Assembly: GCA_001824455.1 (NCBI GenBank)
Contig: MHXL01000064.1
Span: forward strand, 6,734 to 18,040
DNA: 11,307 bases
Source of the DNA: Desulfuromonadaceae bacterium GWB2_53_15
Lineage (GTDB): Bacteria > Desulfobacterota > Desulfuromonadia > Geobacterales > Pseudopelobacteraceae
Direction: 5' to 3'
Below, piece by piece: positions 1 through 11,307 of the stretch. The notes under the pieces are model-generated. The model saw only the letters and a program-made list of their open reading frames with translations, made no database searches and was not told where the DNA came from. Both the position numbers and the translations under genes were made by a program. Every line of letters starts with the position of its first letter. The stretch's first letter is position 1.

Positions 1-1750
1 TGACATCATGCATGTTTTCATCAGGCCCCAATTCGATCGGCTCATCCTCGCGGTAGTAGTCAACCACCTGCGGATTCTTGGCAACCCCGTTCTCGGTGAC
101 GAAAATATCCAGGAAGGCATTGATAACGCCGTACTGAAGCTTGTAAAGCCGCCAGGTTTCCAATTCCCTTTCATGGCTGTTGTTCAGGTCGGAGGCGTCC
201 ATGATCAGCACCATCTTGGAACCGCCTTCGTAGATGTCCTTGTTCTTCAGATGCTGAGTGTGCGCCAGGACAAAATTCTCCCGGAAAATGGTGTTGGCAT
301 TGGTAATAAGGTCATCCTTGCTGCGGGCGATAACCGTGCGCCAGCCACCCCGGGCGATGTCCGAGAAGCCGATATGATTGCCGAAGCCGAAACGACTGGA
401 GAAGAAGGTTACCCGGAAGGGGGTGGCCTGGGGGAGGTCGGCGGTGTAGCTCATGCCCAGTTCCGCCAGATAGGCGGGATCAAGCCGGAACGAGAGGGCC
501 TGCTTTTCCAGCACAAAGAAGTTTGTTTTCAGTGTGTAGCGGATAAACAGCAGGCAACAGTGAAAGATGGCCCGGCGGACCTCGTCAAGGTAGCGGTGCC
601 CGGTGTTGTAATCTTCAACAGCCTTTTTGGCCTCGGCCAGCAATTGGTTGTAAGCGTCGGTATTGCCGGCAACAGCCGGGTCAAAACGGGCCCGGAAGAG
701 TTGCACCAGATGCAGGGTGATGTCGGGATGGCTGTAAAAGGCGCTGCGCACGTCTTCCATGCCGAAGCGATCCGGCTGATTGTGCCCCAGATTGGTTTGG
801 CAAAACGAGATGAAGGCGTTGACCAGGGATGCGTCCATGCCGCTCATGGTGCCAGTGGCAACAAACTCTCTGTAGGTTTGGGAATGGGTTCCCATGATCT
901 GGATATTGTATAATTCCTGCTGCAGGCGGGAAAAAAGCTCTGAATCCCGTTCTACGGCCATCCCGTCCAGGCGGCGAACATAAAATGTCCCCAGGAAATA
1001 GGGGTGGGTGCCGTTGCTGATGGTAAGGCAATAGGCGCGGTTGACCCCCAGATCAAGACGCTTGAAGACTTCCATGATCTGGAGGAAGAAATCCTTCTGC
1101 GGAGGGTTTGCCACTGCAAACAGTACCCGCGATTCCTTTCCACCTGACATCGGCTCCACATCCAGGGACAGTCCGCCCCGGCGGTTTGCCTTCTGGTACA
1201 AGGAGAGGATCTGGGCGACACGCGCCGGTGGCGACACTCTGACATAGCTTTCATTATTGAGCCACAGGATGCGGAGTAACCGGTCAAGGCAATGGAACTC
1301 AAAATCCGGATAATTTGCTTTCAATTCCTTTACAATCTGCTTTCGCAGGCCGACTGGAATCGAGGTTTCAGCTCCATCTGTGATTTCTTGATTGCTCTTT
1401 CGGTCAAACTCAAAGCGCTGGATCTCCAGCGTCTGTTTCAAGCCCGGCATCGCCCCCTCGGAATGGGCGATCATGGCATAGGAGATTTCTTTTTCCGGGA
1501 TGCTACGCAAGGTGTCGTACAATGTTCCCGGCTTGTTTACCATTGCCAGGATGAGCGCCTTCTCCCGATCCGCCAGGATAATGCGCCGGTTGCGTTGAAG
1601 GACTCCGAGATCGCGCGCGAGGACCTCGATCGCCTCCGGCTCGTCCTTCATGGCAACAAAAAAATAGGGATTCAGCTGTTCCTTTAACCACCGACTATTG
1701 GTAATGCACTGATCTCCATTGCTCTTTGAGCCCAATGTGGCGACATGCAT
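1..1750 (-). CDS. Large GDH2-type NAD-dependent glutamate dehydrogenase, C-terminus beyond the window
   Basis: Oxidative deamination of L-glutamate to 2-oxoglutarate and ammonium, presumably with NAD+, in the cytoplasm. The minus frame is open for 583 codons from ATG 1750 to the window edge, with no stop. The start is chosen because AAGGAGA (1765-1759) lies 8 nt upstream. The first ~440 residues are the long regulatory N-terminal part typical of large GDHs (motifs such as NPYFF, RNRRIILADR, EISYAM). The catalytic domain then begins: SDIARGGW (D464 onward), KNKDIYEGGSK with the probable substrate/catalytic Lys at about 512, and LGPDEN near residues 574-579. These match the ~115 kDa family of yeast Gdh2 as I recall it, not the ~450-residue hexameric GDHs. 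The nucleotide-binding part is missing only because the window ends. It lies 49 nt downstream of the aldehyde oxidoreductase on the same strand, with no visible terminator between, so co-transcription is likely. Family call is firm; NAD over NADP preference is from family knowledge. Confidence 0.88.
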   Translation of the reverse strand, partial: MHVATLGSKSNGDQCITNSRWLKEQLNPYFFVAMKDEPEAIEVLARDLGVLQRNRRIILADREKALILAMVNKPGTLYDTLRSIPEKEISYAMIAHSEGAMPGLKQTLEIQRFEFDRKSNQEITDGAETSIPVGLRKQIVKELKANYPDFEFHCLDRLLRILWLNNESYVRVSPPARVAQILSLYQKANRRGGLSLDVEPMSGGKESRVLFAVANPPQKDFFLQIMEVFKRLDLGVNRAYCLTISNGTHPYFLGTFYVRRLDGMAVERDSELFSRLQQELYNIQIMGTHSQTYREFVATGTMSGMDASLVNAFISFCQTNLGHNQPDRFGMEDVRSAFYSHPDITLHLVQLFRARFDPAVAGNTDAYNQLLAEAKKAVEDYNTGHRYLDEVRRAIFHCCLLFIRYTLKTNFFVLEKQALSFRLDPAYLAELGMSYTADLPQATPFRVTFFSSRFGFGNHIGFSDIARGGWRTVIARSKDDLITNANTIFRENFVLAHTQHLKNKDIYEGGSKMVLIMDASDLNNSHERELETWRLYKLQYGVINAFLDIFVTENGVAKNPQVVDYYREDEPIELGPDENMHDV

Positions 1751-1799
1751 GACTTAGGTCTCCTTGACTTTTGATAAACCGAAATCCGTTATGTTTTAT

Positions 1800-3509
1800 C
1801 TAATCAGCGTAAACCTTATCGAGATCTTCATCCGCCACGTCAAACAGACTCCCGCCAGGAATCAGCCGTTCCTTGCTGAAAAAATCCGGGAGCCGGTCGT
1901 CCTTGGGACCGAATCCGGCCAATTTATTGAATTCCCGCTCCTGGCAACAGACGCTCCTGCCCATTTCCATGACATAGCCAGGCGGCAGTTCAATGCCGAG
2001 TTTGGCTGAGACTACGTCCACCAGGTGCTGCTGAAGATCTGGGGCATCAAGCAGCGGCAAGGAAGCAAACAGGCACATACCCAGGGAATCGATGGCGGCG
2101 AAATAGGATTGCAGGAAAGCCGATATCTCATTTTGCCCTTTTGGGCTGGACGCGTCGTAGCCGGGGTTTGCCGGGCTGGGAATCGCATTGCCGCAGGTGT
2201 GATCGGCGCCCATGGTGGAGGTTGCGTAGGTCACGCCTGTTCCCTTGAGTATCCGGGGATCGTAGGCGGATAGCGCCTGTCCCTTGACCGTCGGGATTCT
2301 AGTCACGCCAAGTGCTTTGCCTGTTGCGGTACATCCATTGCCGACCAACAGGCCAAGCTGGTCTTCTGTGTAGATAGATTTAACAACTTCAGCAAGCTTT
2401 TCGCCATCGCCCCAAGGGATGCGTCCTGCTTCCATGGCCACACCAATGGCACAGGCAACATCGATGGTGTCAAGACCCAGGTCGTCACAGGCTCTATCAA
2501 AACGGGCAATGGCGTCCAGGTCGTCAACTTCGCAGTTGCTTCCGGCCAGGCCAACTGTCTCGAATTCCAGACCGGTTGTTATGACTTCCCCCTGTTCATC
2601 GGTGTAGATTTGCGAGCATTGGACAATACAGCCCCGCATGCAGCCATGGGCCGCAGCCGCATTTTTTCTTTCGCCAAGCACCTTTGCAAAAGCCTCGCCA
2701 CCGATCTTCTCTGCTCCTTCAAACTTGCCTCGGGAGAAGTTTTTGGTTGCCAAGCCGCCCATTTCGTTCATTAGCCCCACGAGCAGCGGTGTGCCAAAGG
2801 CCCGCAAGCCGCCGATAAGCGGGTGTTTGAGAATCAGGTCTGTAACTTTTTTAGATGCATCCTTGAATTTACCCGGTTCGGCGATCACTATCCCTGGGCC
2901 GCCCGTGTCATCAATCACAACCGCCTTGACCTTTTTGGCACCCAGTACGGCTCCCAATCCGCCGCGCGCTGCAGCGCGCAGATGATAATCATTAGTAGTG
3001 ACGATAATTGCTGATGCCTTGAGACCCTTTTCCCCAGCCGGACCAACTGTAATCAGAGCCGTACCGGGATACTCTTCTTTCAGCAGATCTACCGCAGCAA
3101 AGTTACCCTTTCCCCAGAGCGAGGCTGCTGAATGAAACGTCACCTCATCGTTTTTGATCACCACGGTCACAGGTTCAGTGGAAACTCCCTGGATTATGAC
3201 CGCTGCTATTCCCAAGCGGGCGATCTTCTGCGCTGCAGCCCCACCTGCATTGGCCTCTTTGATGGTACCGGTCAACGGGCTTTTGCCCCCCACCGACAGA
3301 CGGCCGTTATTGGGAAACGTTGTGGCCGCCAGAATTCCCGGGGCAAGCACGATGATATTGTCCGGTCCCATGGCGTCCGTCATGGCAGGGACTTCTGCCG
3401 AAATTATCGCAGAGGAGAGCCCTCGTCCGCCCATGCCGCTGTATGCTTCCGGAATAACATCCCAAGAGCTTTCTTTTCTTGTCAGATTAATTCGTAGAAT
3501 TCTCGTCAT
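1800..3509 (-). CDS. aor: Aldehyde:ferredoxin oxidoreductase (tungsten/molybdenum pterin enzyme, AOR family)
   Basis: Oxidises aldehydes to carboxylic acids and passes two electrons to ferredoxin; cytoplasmic, using a bis-pyranopterin W (or Mo) cofactor and one [4Fe-4S] cluster. The protein has 569 residues, slightly shorter than the ~600 usual for the family, but both ends are complete. Visible features are the N-terminal MTRILRINLT strand, GMGGRGL (25-31), GRLSVGGKSPLTG (69-81), RGGLGAVLGAKKVKAVV (182-198), the cluster-binding cysteines C290, C294 and C298, GLDTID (345-350), and a distal C479 in DSLGMCLF as the likely fourth ligand. No signal peptide is seen. The start is supported by AGGAG six bases upstream. 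The C-x3-C-x3-C spacing differs from the C-x2-C-x3-C of the archaeal type enzyme. It sits between the permease and the glutamate dehydrogenase, which suggests it removes the aldehyde made by the divergent aminotransferase. Family certain; substrate unknown. Confidence 0.95.
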   Translation of the reverse strand: MTRILRINLTRKESSWDVIPEAYSGMGGRGLSSAIISAEVPAMTDAMGPDNIIVLAPGILAATTFPNNGRLSVGGKSPLTGTIKEANAGGAAAQKIARLGIAAVIIQGVSTEPVTVVIKNDEVTFHSAASLWGKGNFAAVDLLKEEYPGTALITVGPAGEKGLKASAIIVTTNDYHLRAAARGGLGAVLGAKKVKAVVIDDTGGPGIVIAEPGKFKDASKKVTDLILKHPLIGGLRAFGTPLLVGLMNEMGGLATKNFSRGKFEGAEKIGGEAFAKVLGERKNAAAAHGCMRGCIVQCSQIYTDEQGEVITTGLEFETVGLAGSNCEVDDLDAIARFDRACDDLGLDTIDVACAIGVAMEAGRIPWGDGEKLAEVVKSIYTEDQLGLLVGNGCTATGKALGVTRIPTVKGQALSAYDPRILKGTGVTYATSTMGADHTCGNAIPSPANPGYDASSPKGQNEISAFLQSYFAAIDSLGMCLFASLPLLDAPDLQQHLVDVVSAKLGIELPPGYVMEMGRSVCCQEREFNKLAGFGPKDDRLPDFFSKERLIPGGSLFDVADEDLDKVYAD

Positions 3510-3568
3510 TTGCTTCTCCTGTCTCCATTGACGTAATTTATAAGGTCTCTGCTGAGGATTCTGGTCAT
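3506..3568 (-). other. 20-codon upstream ORF overlapping the aldehyde oxidoreductase start (possible leader peptide or gene remnant)
   Basis: An ATG at 3568, seven bases after the permease stop, opens a 20-residue frame (MTRILSRDLINYVNGDRRSK). Its TGA (3508-3506) overlaps the ATG of the aldehyde oxidoreductase in an ATGA arrangement, the layout used in translational coupling. Its first five residues, MTRIL, are identical to the first five of the oxidoreductase. The two 15-base stretches differ at only three positions, all synonymous third bases. No strong Shine-Dalgarno is visible; GGATGA lies about 11 bases upstream, inside the end of the permease gene. It may be a translated leader coupling the permease to the oxidoreductase, or a fossil of a duplicated oxidoreductase 5' end. 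Translation is unproven. Confidence 0.4.
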
Positions 3569-3575
3569 CTTAAAT

Positions 3576-4967
3576 CTAATCATCCAACGCACATATCGCA
3601 TCCGGATTAACTAATGAATTATTTTCAAGGAGATCCTTGAAGTTCTGCGAAGCAAAAGAACGCACTACCAGATAAATAATCCCAACGCCCATCCAGCTGA
3701 AACCGACTGTCTTTGCCAGGGTGGACATGCCGTACAGGATGTAAGCGCAAATAATCATTCCCAGTAACGGGAAGATAACGTGCCTGACGATTTTTCCGCT
3801 CTTGCACTTGATATAATAGTGAAAAATGACTGAAAGATTGACGCAAATGAATCCGAACAGACCGCCGAAGGCAACCAAATCGGCAAGAGTAGCAAAGCTG
3901 ATGGTAAGAGCGCCGGCAATACCGGCAACAGCCATGAACAGGATGCTGTAGGTCGGGGTTCTATAGGTAGGATGCAGATAGGCGAAGAACGCGCCGGGGA
4001 TCAGCTTGTCTCTGCCCATGCCATAAAGCAGACGGCTGGCTGCCGCCTGGCCGGCCAATGCCGTAGATGCGCCGGAAATGATGATTACAAGGGTTATGAA
4101 GATCTGCAGTGCAGAACCGCCAACTTTATAGGTCAATTCAAAAAAGGCGGTATCAGGATTCGTGATGGTGGTAAAATCAGGGGCTACGACGGTGGCAAAA
4201 TAGGACAGGGAAAAGTAGAGAACAGATTGCAAGGTCAAGGCGATAAATATGGCGAGTTTTATTTTCTTGGCGGAATCATGTACCTCTTCAGCCAAGGTCG
4301 TTATGCTGTCAAAGCCCAGATAGGATAATACTGCCAGCACAGACGCGGAAATCACAGCTTTCATGGAAAACATCTTGGGATTGTAAATCGCATTCATGGA
4401 AAACAGGGAGACGCCAGTTCCGGTAACCGCATAGTGGATGGCTGCTATGACAAATGCCAGCAGGGCAGCAATCAAGAGTGCGGAGACAACGGTGTTTGTC
4501 TTAGCCGCAACTTCAACTCCTCTGATATTGATATAGGATACCGGGATCACGTAGATCAGAATCCAGCCCCATAAAGGTATTTGCGGTATCATTTCATGAG
4601 CATAAATGGAGCTGATCACATACAGCAGCAGCGGGATCAGAAAGTAATCCATCAGCATGACCCAGCCGGCGATGAAACCGAGCTTGGGGCTCACCGCTCT
4701 TTGGGTATAACTGTAGGCTGAACCGGCAATCGGGAATGCTTCCACCATCTTTCCATAGCTGTAAGCGGTAAAAAGCATCGCAATGAAACCGATGGCGTAG
4801 GCGATAACGTTATGCCCCTGTGAAATTGTCGTCATGAGCCCAAACAGTGTCATACACGAGGCTGGTGACATGAAGATAATTCCGAAAATAACCAGGTCTC
4901 TGACACCCAGGGACCGTTTCAACTCCTGTTTGTATCCGTATTCCTCTACTGATGCCTGATGTTCCAT
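3576..4967 (-). CDS. APC-superfamily amine/amino-acid permease, PuuP-like
   Basis: Inner-membrane secondary transporter, expected to import an amine or amino acid with a cation. The 463 residues form a cytoplasmic N-terminal tail of about 20 residues followed by about 12 hydrophobic segments, the normal APC length and fold. Conserved stretches are SYGKMVEAFPIAGSAYSY (70-87), LGFIAGWVMLMDY (96-108), SYLGFDSITTLAEE (215-228), SRLLYGMGRD (311-320) and HPTYRTP (332-338). These line up closely, as I remember it, with the E. coli putrescine importer PuuP, so a polyamine or other amine is the best substrate guess, but specificity in this family cannot be read from sequence alone. AAAGGGG lies about 10 bases upstream of the ATG. 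It follows the STAS gene by 68 nt and precedes the aldehyde oxidoreductase by 66 nt on the same strand, so it is probably the import step of the same catabolic operon. Confidence 0.92.
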   Translation of the reverse strand: MEHQASVEEYGYKQELKRSLGVRDLVIFGIIFMSPASCMTLFGLMTTISQGHNVIAYAIGFIAMLFTAYSYGKMVEAFPIAGSAYSYTQRAVSPKLGFIAGWVMLMDYFLIPLLLYVISSIYAHEMIPQIPLWGWILIYVIPVSYINIRGVEVAAKTNTVVSALLIAALLAFVIAAIHYAVTGTGVSLFSMNAIYNPKMFSMKAVISASVLAVLSYLGFDSITTLAEEVHDSAKKIKLAIFIALTLQSVLYFSLSYFATVVAPDFTTITNPDTAFFELTYKVGGSALQIFITLVIIISGASTALAGQAAASRLLYGMGRDKLIPGAFFAYLHPTYRTPTYSILFMAVAGIAGALTISFATLADLVAFGGLFGFICVNLSVIFHYYIKCKSGKIVRHVIFPLLGMIICAYILYGMSTLAKTVGFSWMGVGIIYLVVRSFASQNFKDLLENNSLVNPDAICALDD

Positions 4968-5035
4968 GTCTGTTTTGCCCCTTTCATTATGTGCTGCAAA
5001 ATGTAGCTATATTAAATGTATTGGCCGCATATGAA

Positions 5036-5293
5036 TCATTCGTCATAACACCCCAGAAGTAGCTTATGGTATGGGCTGACCCGCAAAAGCTTCACTCCGC
5101 GTGTAACCAGTTCACGAATCAATTCCACACCATCGCTTTCTATCAAACGAAGATCGTCAAGATCAAGGCAGATTGGTACGCCTGTCTTCCGGCAGAATTC
5201 TTCCAGTTCAACAACTCCGCGGCCTGTAAGTTCACCGCTGATCAGGACAATAGCTCCTGCACCAATTTGTTGTGTCTCTATTCTAAAACTCAT
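5036..5293 (-). CDS. Small STAS-like (anti-sigma-factor-antagonist-type) protein
   Basis: 85 residues with the pattern of a single STAS domain: an initial beta-strand (AIVLISGELTG, about 14-24), a helix, the strand ICLDLDDLRLIESDG (41-55), a helix (VELIRELVTRG), and a last strand/helix KLLRVSPYHKLLL. STAS proteins usually bind partner kinases, anti-sigma factors or transporters. The segment IESDG occupies the place of the classic DSSG phosphorylation loop; my alignment puts an acidic D54 at the normally phosphorylated serine. It is the first gene of the leftward cluster, 68 nt before the permease, so it may modulate the permease or a regulator of the operon; this is inference. The Shine-Dalgarno is weak (AGGA about 13-15 bases upstream). 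Upstream ATGs at 5299-5303 are out of frame. It was recognised by pattern only, and a non-STAS alpha/beta protein remains possible. Confidence 0.62.
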   Translation of the reverse strand: MSFRIETQQIGAGAIVLISGELTGRGVVELEEFCRKTGVPICLDLDDLRLIESDGVELIRELVTRGVKLLRVSPYHKLLLGCYDE

Positions 5294-5360
5294 TCCGCAT
5301 CATCGTCCTGACATCTGTCTATTCGCAAAGAAGTATCTTAATGAATGTTGGCGTATACGA

Positions 5361-5379
5361 AAAGCACATAACATGCCAA
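5361..5379 (-). promoter_or_regulatory. Sigma-54 (-24/-12) promoter candidate for the leftward cluster
   Basis: The minus strand reads TTGGCATGTTATGTGCTTT. GG (5377-5376) and GC (5365-5364) are separated by exactly 10 bases, as sigma-54 requires. It fits the consensus TTGGCAC-R-N4-TTGCWT with mismatches only at the C (T here) and the first T of the -12 box (G here). A transcript would start near 5352, giving a leader of about 60 nt before the STAS gene. Confidence 0.62.
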
Positions 5380-5511
5380 AGGATTCTCCAAGTCTTAATT
5401 AACTACAATAACAAGCTAATATCATAATGATTATTTCCAACAAACATCATTAAGCCCCACCCTCATAACCTGTTTTGCAGAGAAAATCCGAAACACCATC
5501 GCCAAAAGTCA

Positions 5512-5525
5512 CAACATATTGGACT
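5512..5525 (+). repeat. Candidate regulator-binding repeat, copy 1
   Basis: CAACATATTGGACT, repeated with a one-base insertion at 5606-5620, about 95 bp away. It lies within the inverted repeat CACAA (5510-5514) ... TTGTG (5529-5533). It lies roughly 130-150 bp upstream of both sigma-54-type promoters, a usual place for an enhancer-binding-protein site. The binding protein is unknown. Confidence 0.4.
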
Positions 5526-5543
5526 TTATTGTGGAGTTGGGTG

Positions 5544-5553
5544 CAACATGTTG
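5544..5553. repeat. 10-bp perfect palindrome in the control region
   Basis: CAACATGTTG is self-complementary and lies between the two CAAC(T)ATATTGGACT copies. Its left half is shared with those copies (CAACAT). It could be a third site of the same regulator, but a 10-bp palindrome in 477 bp may be chance. Confidence 0.3.
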
Positions 5554-5605
5554 ACCGCTGGGTTAGGTCTGCATGAATGCTGTTGTCTGTTTAGATGAAA
5601 AATAT

Positions 5606-5620
5606 CAACTATATTGGACT
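5606..5620 (+). repeat. Candidate regulator-binding repeat, copy 2
   Basis: CAACTATATTGGACT, the second copy of the element at 5512-5525, flanked by TATCA (5603-5607) and TGATA (5620-5624) as an inverted repeat. The stretch starting TATCAA is also a near but imperfect match to the IHF consensus, and it is about 35-45 bp upstream of the rightward sigma-54-type site. Confidence 0.38.
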
Positions 5621-5650
5621 GATAGGCACGGCTACTGTGGCGGGGGCAAG

Positions 5651-5668
5651 TTGGCACAATTATTGATA
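5651..5668 (+). promoter_or_regulatory. Weaker sigma-54 (-24/-12) promoter candidate for the aminotransferase
   Basis: TTGGCACAATTATTGATA has a perfect -24 box (TTGGCAC) and the right 10-base spacing to the -12 dinucleotide, but that dinucleotide is GA (5665-5666) instead of GC. Transcription would start near 5678, about 93 nt before the ATG. Confidence 0.45.
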
Positions 5669-5770
5669 ACTAGTATACGGCTGAGCAGAGTAAAGACAGA
5701 AAAATGTAGATTCGAATACACTGATCTGGCGTAACGTCGGCAGTGACAATTAAAAAAGGAGGAAGTTACA

Positions 5771-7120
5771 ATGGCATTTACAGAGGTAAAGAAGTTGTAT
5801 CCGAGTTTTCTTACGTTCGATGATGCAATGGCATTGGACAAGGAGACAGCCACCGCACTGCAACTAAAACACAACAATAAGAACAGGACGGAGCTGGCCC
5901 TTCAGTTGGGCGCATCTGGCGTTATTGCCAAAGCAGAAGGTTGCTATCTGTGGGATACCGATGGCAACAAGCACCTTGATTTCGTTGGATCCGTTGGCGT
6001 TTATTGCCTCGGCATCAACAACCCTTTCCTCAACAATAACATCAAGAAATATCTTGACTCCAAGCCTCTGACAATGGATCCGCTGATGGTTCATCAGACA
6101 ACTGCGGCCTTCTCCCACAACATGTCTCTCGTTACCCCGGGGCTTACCCGCACTGTTGTCTGCGGCGGCGGCGGTATGGAGGCTAACGAAACCGCGATTA
6201 AAATGGTCAAGATTGCCGCCCACAGAACCAAAAAAGGCAAAACCAGACTACTTGGCACCCTCAACGCCTTCCACGGGAAATCTTCCGCAACTGTTAATCT
6301 CGCTGGCAAACCAAAATGGCGTCAGTGGCAGGGCGAGGACCTTCCTGGCTACTCCTGGGTACCATACGGCGACCTTGCCGCAGTTGAGGCAGAACTGGCA
6401 AAGGGCGACGTTATTGCTTTCTTTGCCGAAACCATCCAGGGGGAAGGTGGTATCGTTGTTCCGCCGGAAGATTATTTCCCGGCTGTCCGCAAGCTGTGCG
6501 ACAAGTACGATACATACCTGGTGCTTGATGAAGTTCAGGCCGGCAGTTGCCGCACCGGACATATCTGGGCATGGCAGCACTATAAGGACTTCCAGCCGGA
6601 TGCATTTACCTTTGCCAAAGGTATTTCCGGCGGCGTTCTGCCGCTGGGCGGCTGCCAGGCGACAGATGATCTCTATATGGCGGCGTATGGCTCAAATGAC
6701 TCCTGTTTTCATCATACTGCAACCTATCAGGACAACCAGATCAGCGGCGCTTTGGCGCTTTCATCGCTCCAGTTCATGATTGAAAACAATGTTGCCGAGC
6801 ATATTCGATCTGAAGGTGCATATCTCCATGGCAGACTGAATGAACTGAAAGAGAAATATCCGAATGTCATCAAGGAAGTTCGTGGCAGAGGTTACATGAT
6901 CGGCGTCAAGTACGGCGCCAACGCAAAAGGTGAGTACTACACCATCCCTATCTGCGCGACCCTGTCCGGCAAACACAGGGTTCACACCATGTTCTCCATC
7001 AATGACGAAACTATCTGCCGTGCATACCCGAACTACACCACAACACGCGAGGACTTCGAATGGTTCCTGAGCGGCCTGGAAGACTCGATCAAAGAAGTTG
7101 TTGCTCAGATGGGTGAATAA
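5771..7120 (+). CDS. Class III (omega-amino) PLP-dependent aminotransferase, PatA/putrescine-aminotransferase-like, with atypical cofactor loop
   Basis: Transfers a terminal amino group from an amine or omega-amino acid to a 2-oxo acid, giving an aldehyde; cytoplasmic. The length of 449 residues is normal for the class. Visible are the N-terminal YPSFLTFDDAMALDKE segment resembling E. coli PatA, WDTDGNKHLDFVG (61-73), the substrate/cofactor motif AFHG (166-169), ETIQGEGG (220-227), the PLP-ring aspartate D253 in LDEVQAG, and the Schiff-base lysine K283 in FAKGISGG. The cofactor phosphate loop is unusual: CGGGGMEANETAIK (131-144) where the class normally has NSGTEANE, and TYQDNQ (318-323) replaces TFGGNP. 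The start is fixed by a strong AGGAGG (5757-5762) 8 bases upstream. It is transcribed alone, divergently from the permease/oxidoreductase cluster, and followed by a terminator. Substrate is inferred from neighbours: its aldehyde product would feed the aldehyde oxidoreductase, and its glutamate the dehydrogenase. Confidence 0.93.
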   Translation: MAFTEVKKLYPSFLTFDDAMALDKETATALQLKHNNKNRTELALQLGASGVIAKAEGCYLWDTDGNKHLDFVGSVGVYCLGINNPFLNNNIKKYLDSKPLTMDPLMVHQTTAAFSHNMSLVTPGLTRTVVCGGGGMEANETAIKMVKIAAHRTKKGKTRLLGTLNAFHGKSSATVNLAGKPKWRQWQGEDLPGYSWVPYGDLAAVEAELAKGDVIAFFAETIQGEGGIVVPPEDYFPAVRKLCDKYDTYLVLDEVQAGSCRTGHIWAWQHYKDFQPDAFTFAKGISGGVLPLGGCQATDDLYMAAYGSNDSCFHHTATYQDNQISGALALSSLQFMIENNVAEHIRSEGAYLHGRLNELKEKYPNVIKEVRGRGYMIGVKYGANAKGEYYTIPICATLSGKHRVHTMFSINDETICRAYPNYTTTREDFEWFLSGLEDSIKEVVAQMGE

Positions 7121-7157: not shown

Positions 7158-7192
7158 CCCTCCTTGGCATATGGCTGAGGAGGGTTTTTTTT
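7158..7192 (+). terminator. Rho-independent terminator after the aminotransferase
   Basis: CCCTCCT (7158-7164) pairs with AGGAGGG (7178-7184). The stem extends inward by TGGC/GCTG (two wobble pairs, two GC pairs) around an ATATG loop, and is followed by eight T residues (7185-7192). It starts 38 bases after the aminotransferase stop. Confidence 0.9.
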
Positions 7193-7227: not shown

Positions 7228-7241
7228 GGGACAATATATTG
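7228..7241 (+). repeat. GGGACAATATATTG direct repeat, copy 1
   Basis: Identical 14-base match to 7320-7333, 92 bp apart. This copy is followed by CA, so the palindromic extension is incomplete. Candidate operator half of a pair. Confidence 0.5.
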
Positions 7242-7319
7242 CACCTGGTGGCGCTTTTTATATTTTAAGTTGAATTTTAATCTGAAATCAGGCTGTTTTT
7301 TTGGAAAAGCAGGGATTAG

Positions 7320-7335
7320 GGGACAATATATTGTC
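7320..7335 (+). repeat. GGGACAATATATTG direct repeat, copy 2, inside a 14-bp palindrome
   Basis: Second copy of the repeat at 7228-7241. GACAATATATTGTC (7322-7335) is perfectly self-complementary, which suggests a dimeric regulator site about 75-85 bp upstream of the kinase-like start codon. The regulator is unknown. Confidence 0.5.
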
Positions 7336-7406
7336 TTTGGATATTAGATATGCAATATTGCTCATCAAAATAGTTGGGCGGTCACGTCAAAGAAGGGTGG
7401 TTTGCT

Positions 7407-10400
7407 ATGGAATGGGTTAATGACAAAATTGAAATTGGTGATGGTGAATTTTACACCCTCTACAAATCATCCGCTCAGGATGGAAAGCCGGTTATTCTCA
7501 AGGCAACCAAATCGGGCACTGATTTAAAAATTGCCTGCAGACGATTGCGCCGAGAGTATGAGGTCTGCCAGCAGCTTCAAATCAATGGCATTATCCGCCC
7601 GCTCAAGCTGCTGGAAGTGAACGCCCGTTCAATCCTGGTCCTGGAGGATTCCGGTTACCAACCGCTGGACAGCATACTCCGTCAAGGGGCGCTGGAATTG
7701 AAACTGGCCTTGAAGGTCGCCGGCAGCCTTGCCGATACGTTGGCTGCGCTGCATCAGGCAGGCTACCTCCACCGGGACATTCAGCCCGGCAATATCCTGA
7801 TCAACTGTGAAACCGATGAAATTCTACTGCATGGATTGGGCGCAGCTACACAGGTACCCAGGACGGTCCAGCGAGTGCAGTATGCCAGGATGCTTGAAAC
7901 CTCTCCAGCCTATATGTCTCCGGAACTTTCCGGACGAACCAATCAGCTGGTAGATTACCGTACAGACTTTTACTCTCTTGGCGTGACACTATTTCAGATC
8001 GTTACAGGACGTCTTCCCTTTGAATCGGATGATCCCCTGGCACTGGTTCACGCCCATGTGGCAAAACAACCGCCGGCGGCAAACGATATTAATCCTGATG
8101 TACCCCCCATTCTCGCCGAAATAATCCTGAAATTGATGGCAAAGTCGGCGGAGGACCGCTATCAGGGTGGGCATGGACTGCAGCGGGACATTGAAAAGTG
8201 TCTTGGCGAATTGGAGTCAACCGGTTTGATCCGGCAATTTGAGCTGGCAGAATATGATCCGCCCTCGCGCTTCGAGCTGCATCAACGGTTTTACGGCAGA
8301 GAGCTGGAAATCAAAAAGTTGCTGAACTGTTTCAGCAAAGCTGCCCGAGGGAAGCAACAGGTGGTCATGGTGGCCGGTTATCCTGGCGTCGGAAAGACCA
8401 CCCTGGTCAACGAACTAAGAAAAAATGTATTCGCACAACAAGGCTGGTTTATTTCCGGTAAATATGATGTCCTGGAACGTGAGACACCGTACAGCGGCAT
8501 TCGGGAGGCACTGCTCGATCTCTGGCGGCGGGTCATGTCCGATGAAAAAGAACTGGAAATACAATTCCGTGCCAAACTTGAAAGTTCTCTCGGTCAAAAC
8601 CTCGGCGTAATCGTGGAGGTCGTTCCGGAAATGAGGGAGATCTTCGGGGAGATCCCGCCGATTGTCGAGCTTGATGCGATCGAATCAAGAAACCGCTTTC
8701 TACTCTGTTTTATCCTCACCCTGAAGGCCTTGACCACAGAAGGACACCCGTTGGTGCTGTTTCTTGACGACCTGCAGTGGGCGGATCAGTCAAGTCTGGA
8801 GCTGATCGAAGGTGTTCTGGAAAAAGGTTTGAATAATTTTCTTCTCTTGGGAGCGTACCGGAGCAGTGAGGTAAACCAACGGCACCCCTTGATGCAGTCG
8901 ATGAGAAGGGTTGATGAAAAGCATATTCCGTATGAGGCCTTGAACCTGGCGCCACTTGAATTGCAGGACATACGGCAGTTTGTCGCCGAATCCATGCGGA
9001 TGAAGCTGAAGGATGCGGCTCCACTTGCCGATCTGGTATTCCAGAAAACCGGTGGAAATGCGTTCTATGCCAAGGCTTTCCTGACAAGCATTCACGAAGC
9101 CGGTCTGCTGCAACTGAAAGACGATGCCTCCTGGGGTTGGCATCTGCCCAGTATTGCCGGACATGAAACCACTGAAAACGTTATCGACCTGACTCTGCGT
9201 AAAATCAGCATGATGTCGGAGGGGATTCGACATACCGTTTCAATGGCTGCGGCCTTGGGCCGACCGATCGATACCGAAATACTGGCGGCTGTCTGCTCAT
9301 CAACACGGGAAAAAGTCGAGGCCGACCTTCTCGAAGCATGCAATGTCCGTATTCTGCTGAAGAATGAGGATGGTTATCAGTTTGAGCACGATCACCTGCA
9401 GGAGTGCGTATACTCACTAAGTCCGGAGCCGGAGCGCGCGGCAACACACCTGCGCATTGGCAGGCTCATTGCTGAACGTGAGGGAAAAAACCTGGCAGAG
9501 CCAAGGATATTTACCGTTCTCGACCATTTGAATAATGCCTTGGCGTTGATAAAGGACCCTGAAGAGAGGGAAAGAACGGCCCATATGAACCTGGCGGCAG
9601 GACGGTTAGCCAAGTCGGCAGCCGCATTCCCTGCTGCTTTTCATTATTTTACCAGTGGACTGACTCTGCTTGCCGATAGCGCGTGGAGCTTAAATTACGA
9701 ACTGGCCCTGGCTATCCATACCGAAGCTGCCGAGGCGGCTTTCCTGACTGTAAACTTCCATGAAGCCGACCGTTTTGTCCATCTTGTTATCACCAACGCC
9801 AATAACCTTCTTGATAAAATACCTGCATATGAAACACTGATCGCGCTCAAACATGCAAAGTTACAGGAGGCGGAAGCAATCAGGATAAGCCTGGAAGTCG
9901 TTAAGCTTTTGGGGGTCGAGGTGCCTGCAGACCCTTCACAAGATGAAGTCAAAGCTGCAATTATCGCGACCCAGAGAGCGGTTCATGCCACACTCTCCAA
10001 ACCTCTTTTGGGAACAGAAGTCACAACCGATGCCGAATGCACCGCAGCAATGAGGCTGTTGACGCGAGCAGCCATAATTGCCGGAACGGTAAATCATCAT
10101 CTGTATCTTGTTATCGGACACAAACTCTTCAACCTTGCCCTGTTGCACCCAAACAGTCCTGAGTCATCTCTCGCCTATATCATGGCTGGTGGAATGCTTT
10201 GCTATCTTCTGGATGACTATGCAAACGGATACAAGATTGCCGATCGCGGTACTGAACTGATGAATAATTCCGCAGCACCCCGCTTACATTCTTTTTGCAA
10301 CTTCCTGCTTACAGTGGACATTAACTGCTGGCGATTACACCTGGATTCTCTTGTTAGTGACTTTATAAAATCCTATCGGATCGGCCTCGAAAGCGGCGAT

Positions 10401-11307
10401 CTGATGACCGCCAGCATATCTACCTATTATTGCTGTGAAACAGCCCTTCATTCCGGTATGGAATTATCGCAACTGGAAAGCATGATCCACGAATATCACG
10501 ACAAAAATCAACGTATCGGCATGGAAAGGATTGCCCTTGGATTGTTGCGTCTGGAGCAAGTTTGCCGGTCGCTCAAGAATGGTGTGGAAACTTCGTATCA
10601 ATCCAGAATGGAATTACGGTCTCTTCCTGATACCTTGCTGAACTGGCATGTGGGTGCGGACCAGACGGTTCAGGAAATATCAGCCTGTCACGAAATGATG
10701 ACCCTGTTCATTTATCGGCAAACATCTCCGGCCCTGGAAGCATCTTTGCGCGCAAATGAGCTGCCCCTGGGAGGCGCTACAGCGCTTCTTCCTGCTGATT
10801 TTTACATCTGTCTCAGTATTATGGATGCCCTGCCGGGTGTGGCCGGACAAGAAAAAGATAAACTATTGGGAATTATTGCCGTGCGACGAGAGCGGCTTCG
10901 ACTTAAAGCGCAGGCGTGTCCGATCAATCACCAACACAAATTCTATCTCGTTGAGGCACAGAGATTACGCATGTCCGACGATCCACTTGCGGCAATGGAA
11001 TATTTCGACAAGGCCATAGCAGGAGCGCAGGAGAACCATTATATTCATGAAGAAGCTCTTGCCAATGAACTGGCCGCAGAATTTTATCTGGAGATGGGAC
11101 GTGAACAGATAGCCACCATGTATCTGCATGGCGCCATCTCGGCATATGGCCGCTGGGGGTCGTGGGGGAAGCTGGATCAATTCTATGATCGATACCGGAA
11201 ATATCTATCGCAGCAAAATTCCCTCTCAACCATGATCGCCCTGACCAGCCGCCCCCGGCATGAAGGTGGCAACAAGGCTGAATCACTGGACATCTCAAGC
11301 ATTGAAC
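7407..11307 (+). CDS. Large Ser/Thr kinase-like / AAA ATPase / helical-repeat signalling protein, C-terminus beyond the window
   Basis: Cytoplasmic signal-transduction protein of the multidomain family that usually ends in GAF and histidine-kinase (or other output) domains. The frame is open for 1300 codons from ATG 7407 to the window edge; GAAGGGTGG lies 6 bases before the start. Residues ~5-275 form a protein-kinase-like domain: VILK lysine K32, catalytic-loop HRD (122-124) with N129, SPE (171-173) and DYRTDFYSLGV. The DFG motif reads GLG (143-145), so the metal-binding aspartate is missing and the domain may be a pseudokinase. YGRE (296-299) opens an ATPase domain with Walker A GYPGVGKTT (324-332) and Walker B LFLDDLQWAD (D454, D455). 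From ~680 onward the protein is alpha-helical and TPR-like (e.g. ALANELAAEFYLEMG), as in the COG3899 predicted ATPases. The last residues, ESLDISSIE, resemble the linker just before a GAF domain. No signal peptide or membrane segment is seen. Any link to the amine genes is unproven. Confidence 0.92.
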   Translation, partial: MEWVNDKIEIGDGEFYTLYKSSAQDGKPVILKATKSGTDLKIACRRLRREYEVCQQLQINGIIRPLKLLEVNARSILVLEDSGYQPLDSILRQGALELKLALKVAGSLADTLAALHQAGYLHRDIQPGNILINCETDEILLHGLGAATQVPRTVQRVQYARMLETSPAYMSPELSGRTNQLVDYRTDFYSLGVTLFQIVTGRLPFESDDPLALVHAHVAKQPPAANDINPDVPPILAEIILKLMAKSAEDRYQGGHGLQRDIEKCLGELESTGLIRQFELAEYDPPSRFELHQRFYGRELEIKKLLNCFSKAARGKQQVVMVAGYPGVGKTTLVNELRKNVFAQQGWFISGKYDVLERETPYSGIREALLDLWRRVMSDEKELEIQFRAKLESSLGQNLGVIVEVVPEMREIFGEIPPIVELDAIESRNRFLLCFILTLKALTTEGHPLVLFLDDLQWADQSSLELIEGVLEKGLNNFLLLGAYRSSEVNQRHPLMQSMRRVDEKHIPYEALNLAPLELQDIRQFVAESMRMKLKDAAPLADLVFQKTGGNAFYAKAFLTSIHEAGLLQLKDDASWGWHLPSIAGHETTENVIDLTLRKISMMSEGIRHTVSMAAALGRPIDTEILAAVCSSTREKVEADLLEACNVRILLKNEDGYQFEHDHLQECVYSLSPEPERAATHLRIGRLIAEREGKNLAEPRIFTVLDHLNNALALIKDPEERERTAHMNLAAGRLAKSAAAFPAAFHYFTSGLTLLADSAWSLNYELALAIHTEAAEAAFLTVNFHEADRFVHLVITNANNLLDKIPAYETLIALKHAKLQEAEAIRISLEVVKLLGVEVPADPSQDEVKAAIIATQRAVHATLSKPLLGTEVTTDAECTAAMRLLTRAAIIAGTVNHHLYLVIGHKLFNLALLHPNSPESSLAYIMAGGMLCYLLDDYANGYKIADRGTELMNNSAAPRLHSFCNFLLTVDINCWRLHLDSLVSDFIKSYRIGLESGDLMTASISTYYCCETALHSGMELSQLESMIHEYHDKNQRIGMERIALGLLRLEQVCRSLKNGVETSYQSRMELRSLPDTLLNWHVGADQTVQEISACHEMMTLFIYRQTSPALEASLRANELPLGGATALLPADFYICLSIMDALPGVAGQEKDKLLGIIAVRRERLRLKAQACPINHQHKFYLVEAQRLRMSDDPLAAMEYFDKAIAGAQENHYIHEEALANELAAEFYLEMGREQIATMYLHGAISAYGRWGSWGKLDQFYDRYRKYLSQQNSLSTMIALTSRPRHEGGNKAESLDISSIE

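Follow-up and report, generated by a model that had tools for sequence, protein, structure and literature searches.

Does the locus described here encode an anaerobic route of amine catabolism in which a tungsten-type aldehyde:ferredoxin oxidoreductase (AOR) takes the place held in relatives by an aldehyde dehydrogenase? The question is raised by a stretch of 11,307 nucleotides from Desulfuromonadaceae bacterium GWB2_53_15, the whole of which we call the window (contig MHXL01000064.1, G000:C64:6734-18040 in our numbering; genome of 1.83 Mb in 189 contigs, 52% complete). According to the map of open reading frames (ORFs) and profile matches, a STAS-like ORF, an APC-family permease, the AOR and a large glutamate dehydrogenase (GDH) are read leftward, and a class III aminotransferase is read divergently rightward. 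From sequence comparison we put at roughly 0.57 the probability that the locus is an anaerobic amine-catabolism module leading from amine through aldehyde to acid and reduced ferredoxin. Such a module is likely to be a variant of the known aminotransferase-type amine route, with AOR replacing aldehyde dehydrogenase.

We infer the reactions and their direction as follows. The permease would import an amine, and the aminotransferase would transfer its terminal amino group to 2-oxoglutarate, yielding aldehyde and glutamate. The AOR would then oxidise the aldehyde to the acid with reduction of ferredoxin, while the additional large GDH would convert glutamate back to 2-oxoglutarate, releasing NADH and ammonium.

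The sequence-only reading had named AOR, class III aminotransferase and GDH, and all three are borne out by profile matches above cut-off (AFOR_N/AFOR_C, Aminotran_3 and Bac_GDH_CD, respectively). The AOR (1800-3509, minus strand, 569 aa) matches AFOR_N with 5.8e-61 (206.1 bits, cut-off 29.8) and AFOR_C with 6e-69 (233.5 bits, cut-off 27), and is also matched to 9mqx and 1aor. Its alignment contains C290, C294, C298 and C479, which we take to be the 4Fe-4S ligands, and H437, presumably the active-site histidine. Cysteines are spaced CxxxCxxxC in all 18 alignment rows covering this region and CxxCxxxC in 1aor; the signature TMGADHTCGNA occupies residues 432-442. The protein is predicted to bind tungstopterin and to pass electrons to ferredoxin. 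The aminotransferase (5771-7120, plus strand; Aminotran_3 1.9e-73, 247.9 bits) falls in a rare subfamily with YgjG (putrescine aminotransferase) and PigE as relatives, and keeps the lysine and aspartate for pyridoxal phosphate (PLP) as well as the Glu/Arg pair for 2-oxoglutarate (K283, D253, E225 and R417).

The GDH (2-1750, minus strand, N-terminal 583 aa) is cut by the start of the window, directly next to which the contig has a run of N. This part passes the Bac_GDH_CD cut-off barely (24.7 bits against 22.8) and matches the solved NAD-specific GDH 7a1d weakly (E=1.7e-4). The rest of the enzyme is the next ORF (379 aa, L005 5536-6675; ELFV_dehydrog, and Bac_GDH_CD above cut-off with 30.7 bits). 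A frameshift was suspected from the two ORFs and ruled out, as the break falls in an N run (52 N between L005 6187 and 6733); because of such runs, full length is uncertain (about 1000 aa are expected for a large NAD-GDH).

The place of the AOR in the proposed route can be judged from relatives. At E<=1e-80, relatives of the permease (3576-4967, minus strand, 463 aa) occur in two of 141 genomes of the order, namely the window's own and G121 (locus L052), whose permease is 71% identical. In both genomes the permease has a member of the rare aminotransferase subfamily as neighbour, on the same strand in G121 and divergently in the window; the gene on its other side in G121 encodes an NAD-type aldehyde dehydrogenase (Aldedh 6.8e-142). 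In G001, a member of the window's genus, aminotransferase and aldehyde dehydrogenase (8e-145) share a 3.4 kb contig; no permease relative was found there by the search of the order at E<=1e-80. The two dehydrogenases are 72% alike. Since permease and aminotransferase accompany a dehydrogenase in G121, and permease and AOR accompany the same aminotransferase subfamily here, the AOR would stand in the dehydrogenase's slot. The subfamily was detected at E<=1e-70 in only three of 147 relatives (self, G001 and G121) and at E<=1e-75 only in the window genome among 395 genomes sampled from the phylum, a sample that evidently did not contain the G001 and G121 enzymes (E about 1e-98).

Further support comes from the GDH. 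Among the 12 named-genome loci, the nearest AOR (75% identical) belongs to a Desulfuromonadales metagenome-assembled genome (L008), where a GDH follows 170 bp further on; its contig begins inside the AOR. The window GDH is 71.5% identical to this 1007-aa GDH ORF. Large GDHs as such are common (124 of 147 relatives). When compared with the L008 enzyme, the window genome has two of them, the AOR-linked copy at 70-74% and a copy on contig C13 at 60%. A single copy, at 59-60%, was matched in each of the genus mates G002, G003 and G004. The AOR-linked GDH is an extra copy in this genome. The second copy (G000:C13:3353-6191) matches in two pieces, and since 234 N lie in the fetched surroundings, a gap is likelier than a broken gene.

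We wondered if AORs of this kind also occur next to aminotransferases elsewhere. AOR relatives are widespread: at E<=1e-60 they occur in 103 of 147 genomes, the window's own counted, the best others being 47-48% identical. The core ADHTCGN of the signature is present in the window, L008-L019 and L097-L099 and missing from all 20 AORs of L054-L071. The 15 other signature loci are the 12 named-genome loci and three new ones from the search of the 395 genomes, in which the remaining three of six non-self matches were L010, L012 and L014 again. Class III aminotransferases occur no more than 5 kb from the AOR at 8 of these 15 loci and at 1 of the 20 without signature (Fisher p=0.0019, for hand-picked loci, some shortened by contig ends, with kinship uncorrected). 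The lone non-signature case is L063, with an AOR of 42% identity.

The eight positive loci (L011-L018) have AORs 51-57% identical to that of the window. Their aminotransferases represent another subfamily, being just 27-29% identical to the window's. A TRAP large permease is found within 5 kb in seven of the eight (exception L013), and an alanine dehydrogenase above cut-off near L012, L014 and L015 (in L015 5.4 kb away, on the other strand). The recurrence of transporter, aminotransferase, AOR and acceptor-regenerating dehydrogenase, built from other parts, suggests a second amine-type module.

An AOR tree was constructed from 53 of 68 ORFs, after exclusion of 15 that were duplicates, incomplete or too distant. 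It groups the window with L008 (starred). One branch (starred) separates them from a group of 39 rows, comprising 28 rows linked to iron alcohol dehydrogenase and L063; on the other side are 14 rows, made up of two distant paralogues, L008-L018 and the window. Three changes suffice to place the aminotransferase label on this tree, whereas shuffled labels take 9.0 and none of 500 shuffles was as low. Aminotransferase-linked AORs are thus clustered, one clade not being established, and long outgroup branches make the position of the root uncertain. As a tentative generalisation, to which we give somewhat less than even odds, AORs of the ADHTCGN kind may often be the enzymes that oxidise the aldehydes of anaerobic amine catabolism and thereby reduce ferredoxin. 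They would work in plug-in modules of an APC or TRAP transporter, class III aminotransferase, AOR and GDH or alanine dehydrogenase, in Desulfuromonadales/Desulfobacteraceae-type and SAR324 bacteria, the window being a case with AOR where relatives have aldehyde dehydrogenase.

Several observations weigh against an amine module. The four genes occur together in no genome examined, and the two halves recur separately; conservation of the neighbourhood in relatives had been set beforehand as a test, and it yielded the halves only. In the L008 genome no permease relative was found, a weak result given that this is a draft, and its aminotransferase matches (24-33%) include none of the rare subfamily; by our own reading of neighbour genes, two of them are ArgD- and BioA-like, the best match (33%) being the ArgD-like one. 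The window aminotransferase is just 39-42% identical to those of G121 and G001, so its substrate may differ. Seven of the 15 signature loci (L008, L009, L010, L019, L097, L098 and L099) have no aminotransferase nearby; the contig is cut close to the AOR in L008, L009, L019 and on one side of L099, not in L010, L097 and L098. A search of the 52%-complete window genome for the G121-type aldehyde dehydrogenase was empty, which alone shows nothing, and another aldehyde dehydrogenase (C84, Aldedh 9.6e-44) is present beside an AOR-family gene. Phenylacetate-CoA ligase (TIGR02155, which matches 10 of 14 control genomes), looked for as a sign of an aromatic acid product, was not found either, an uninformative result at this completeness. 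Finally, for the methylotroph Methyloversatilis, growth on methylamine is reported to lower an AOR transcript 2.6-fold relative to methanol (PMC5023235).

Among the signature AORs without nearby aminotransferase are L097 8784-10496, L098 9520-11253 and L099 8534-10258; the gene next to the AOR of L097 is pyrroline-5-carboxylate reductase-like. The gene at C84 is a distant member of the AOR family (AFOR_C 9.9e-47) that directly adjoins the aldehyde dehydrogenase (L007 1729-5337).

Some of these data could also be expected if AOR and GDH formed a separate unit, serving aldehyde detoxification, oxidation of amino-acid-derived aldehydes or acid reduction, and merely adjoined a permease-aminotransferase pair. 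L008 has AOR and GDH in a genome where the other two genes were not found, the signature AORs of L097-L099 and L010 lack a nearby aminotransferase, and an iron alcohol dehydrogenase lies within 5 kb of the AOR in 28 of the 29 best-scoring relative loci (L020-L048). Against this, permease and AOR are separated by 66 bp on one strand here, while the G121 permease goes with the aminotransferase, and class III aminotransferases are commoner beside signature AORs than beside others. We regard a separate unit as unlikely, though it deserves some weight.

A second alternative concerns the substrate. The route could be one for putrescine or cadaverine, with a YgjG-type diamine aminotransferase and an AOR turning aminobutyraldehyde into GABA. 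The best solved relatives of the aminotransferase are indeed E. coli YgjG structures (31% identity to YgjG), and PRK11522, the putrescine aminotransferase model, is its second NCBIfam match. Scores are far under family cut-offs (PRK11522 257 against 612 bits, TIGR03372 218.8 against 658.65 bits). The aldehyde dehydrogenases of G121 and G001 likewise match PRK13473 (aminobutyraldehyde) best, with 423 against 615 bits, followed by phenylacetaldehyde dehydrogenase StyD, both below cut-off. Among solved relatives of the G121 enzyme, an unnamed aldehyde dehydrogenase family protein comes first, then a phenylacetaldehyde dehydrogenase, the aminobutyraldehyde enzyme being lower (324 against 293 bits).

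Residues can be compared with the published YgjG-putrescine structure (PMC4244111). Lys300, Glu243, Gln274, Arg426, Asp271 and Thr332 are conserved in the window aminotransferase, as is Phe327; Leu419 is replaced by Ile, Phe91 by Val and Thr151, which contacts the PLP phosphate, by Met. Gln119, described there as holding the second amine of putrescine, is conserved in none of the four subfamily members. It aligns with Leu in the window, and hand placements never gave Gln. Because its loop carries an indel and one placement sets a window Asp beside the Gln119 position, a diamine may still be the substrate. Conserved Phe327 and Ile for Leu419 speak for putrescine, loss of Gln119 and the Phe91 exchange against it, and so does the occurrence of homologues beside monoamine genes (MoaF in G121 and Klebsiella variicola, in G121 also a MoaE-like gene). 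Overall, a putrescine or cadaverine route seems quite improbable.

The permease had been called PuuP-like in the sequence-only reading. This label could not be upheld: the protein is an APC member (AA_permease 8.6e-37) nearest to ApcT/CAT-type transporters, its best solved relatives being 6f34/5oqt ("amino acid transporter") and cationic amino acid transporters, and none of the 19 NCBIfam models that it matched is named a putrescine importer (best, a generic amino acid transporter with 144 bits against a cut-off of 556.8). Nor did the scan of ORFs along the 18 kb contig, in which two ORFs matched no family, show PuuBCD or the gamma-glutamylputrescine synthetase PuuA. The logic of the amine module proposed in that reading draws support from the comparison with G121 and G001, the extra GDH, the kept Glu/Arg pair and the signature AORs near aminotransferases; its Puu/putrescine colouring has no such support. 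Plasmid relatives of the permease, 36-41% identical among the matches listed (best 25 of 239 records), gave no lead to the substrate from the one neighbourhood examined; the listed match was often annotated acetamidase/formamidase or cyclase.

Least probable is that the PLP enzyme acts as a lyase or in the direction of amine synthesis, since against its top NCBIfam match, PigE of prodigiosin synthesis (276.6 against 850 bits), the inclusion of ammonia-lyases in the class III fold (PbfA model matched) and the Met at Thr151 stand the conserved Glu243/Arg426 pair for 2-oxoglutarate, the partner permease and GDH, and the absence, among the genes identified here, of the annotated neighbours that PigE-like genes have on two plasmids.

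Returning to the amine module, which amine might it use? The Moa-gene neighbours of the homologues and the missing putrescine-binding Gln are a weak hint at a monoamine of the phenylethylamine/tyramine type, hydrophobic at one end, rather than at putrescine. Among plasmids, the aminotransferase is matched best on K. variicola pKv8917 (44.8%), where the surrounding cluster shares with G121 a second permease (66%), DUF3156, MoaF (40%) and a short-chain dehydrogenase (55%). G121 further encodes a protein with 61% identity to K. aerogenes MoaE, in whose cluster MoaF and a "monoamine regulon transcriptional regulator" are annotated. In Azoarcus KH32C, one region holds MoaF, a MoaE-like protein, an aldehyde dehydrogenase of 65% identity and an alanine dehydrogenase. 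A MoaF locus on a P. aeruginosa plasmid was set aside, since the aminotransferase there, with 29.6% identity over 159 aa, belongs to a different subfamily. The Moa neighbours give a monoamine lead as far as the homologues are concerned but prove nothing about the window module, around which MoaE, MoaF and DUF3156 are not among the genes identified.

Known systems show similar logic. According to PMC4244111, E. coli YgjG and YdcW combine a class III aminotransferase, 2-oxoglutarate as acceptor and passage from aldehyde to acid, as proposed for the window; YdcW, however, is an aldehyde dehydrogenase, and the aminotransferases differ as described above. Pseudomonas HinACD (PMC8231116, PMC6467879) brings histamine to an acid with an APC permease and an aminotransferase, but with an aldehyde dehydrogenase where the window has AOR; this likeness is taken from the published descriptions. 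The MoaE/MoaF clusters of Klebsiella, G121 and the Azoarcus KH32C plasmid are closer in part, as G121 and K. variicola share the aminotransferase subfamily and G121 also the permease; they differ by their Moa and DUF3156 genes and again by aldehyde dehydrogenase in place of AOR. A precedent for exchange of the two enzyme types on one aldehyde is Aromatoleum aromaticum, where phenylacetaldehyde is oxidised by AorABC or StyD/PDH (PMC9765128). There, phenylalanine rather than an imported amine is the source of the aldehyde, and AorABC contrasts with the single AOR gene of the window. Among the titles and beginnings of abstracts listed in our searches of open-access literature, none dealt with AOR in amine catabolism.

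Were the amine module real, each amine deaminated would provide reduced ferredoxin and NADH, in comparison with NADH only in the aldehyde dehydrogenase route. Reduced ferredoxin has a potential of about -400 to -500 mV. Anaerobes would therefore gain usable energy or reducing power. Moreover, one kind among the many AORs without known substrate would receive a physiological role, predictable by signature and neighbours, and a substrate class would be named for the AOR-type amine module.

Gene spacing fits a single leftward transcript for permease, AOR and GDH (gaps of 66 bp between permease and AOR and 49 bp between AOR and GDH). Its first gene is perhaps the small STAS-like ORF of anti-sigma-antagonist type (5036-5293, minus strand, 85 aa; TIGR00377 E=3e-4 and STAS_2 E=0.017, both below cut-off). 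It is a candidate anti-sigma antagonist regulator whose motif seems to read ESDG at what is presumably the position of the DSSG-type phosphorylation motif. A shared control region had been claimed between the divergent genes; the arrangement is as described, but with this ORF inside, the gap probably shrinks to 5294-5770. A sigma-54-like -24/-12 site with one mismatch, TGGCACAATTATTGAT (5652-5667, plus strand), lies upstream of the aminotransferase. Sigma-54 control was rejected, as seven sites in the window compare with 7.54 expected by chance and only the placement is suggestive.

The aminotransferase gene seems to form its own transcription unit, judging by a terminator-like hairpin 3' of it (7158-7184, plus strand; 11 pairs, 7 of them G-C, followed by 8 T), though terminator-like sites there show no excess (3 against 2.6 in shuffles). 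The Rfam scan gave no match and the tRNA search found none. In the spacer towards the next gene (7230-7340), near-repeated words GGGACAATATATTG occur. Beyond it, a giant protein of at least 1311 aa with Ser/Thr kinase and AAA_16 ATPase parts (7374-11307) runs off the contig. It bears partial likeness to TOMM kinase/cyclase and is probably a signalling protein unrelated to the module. On the other side, about 3 kb past the GDH ORFs and on the same strand, a protein of the Phenol_MetA_deg family is encoded (L005 1586-2440; 4.4e-35).

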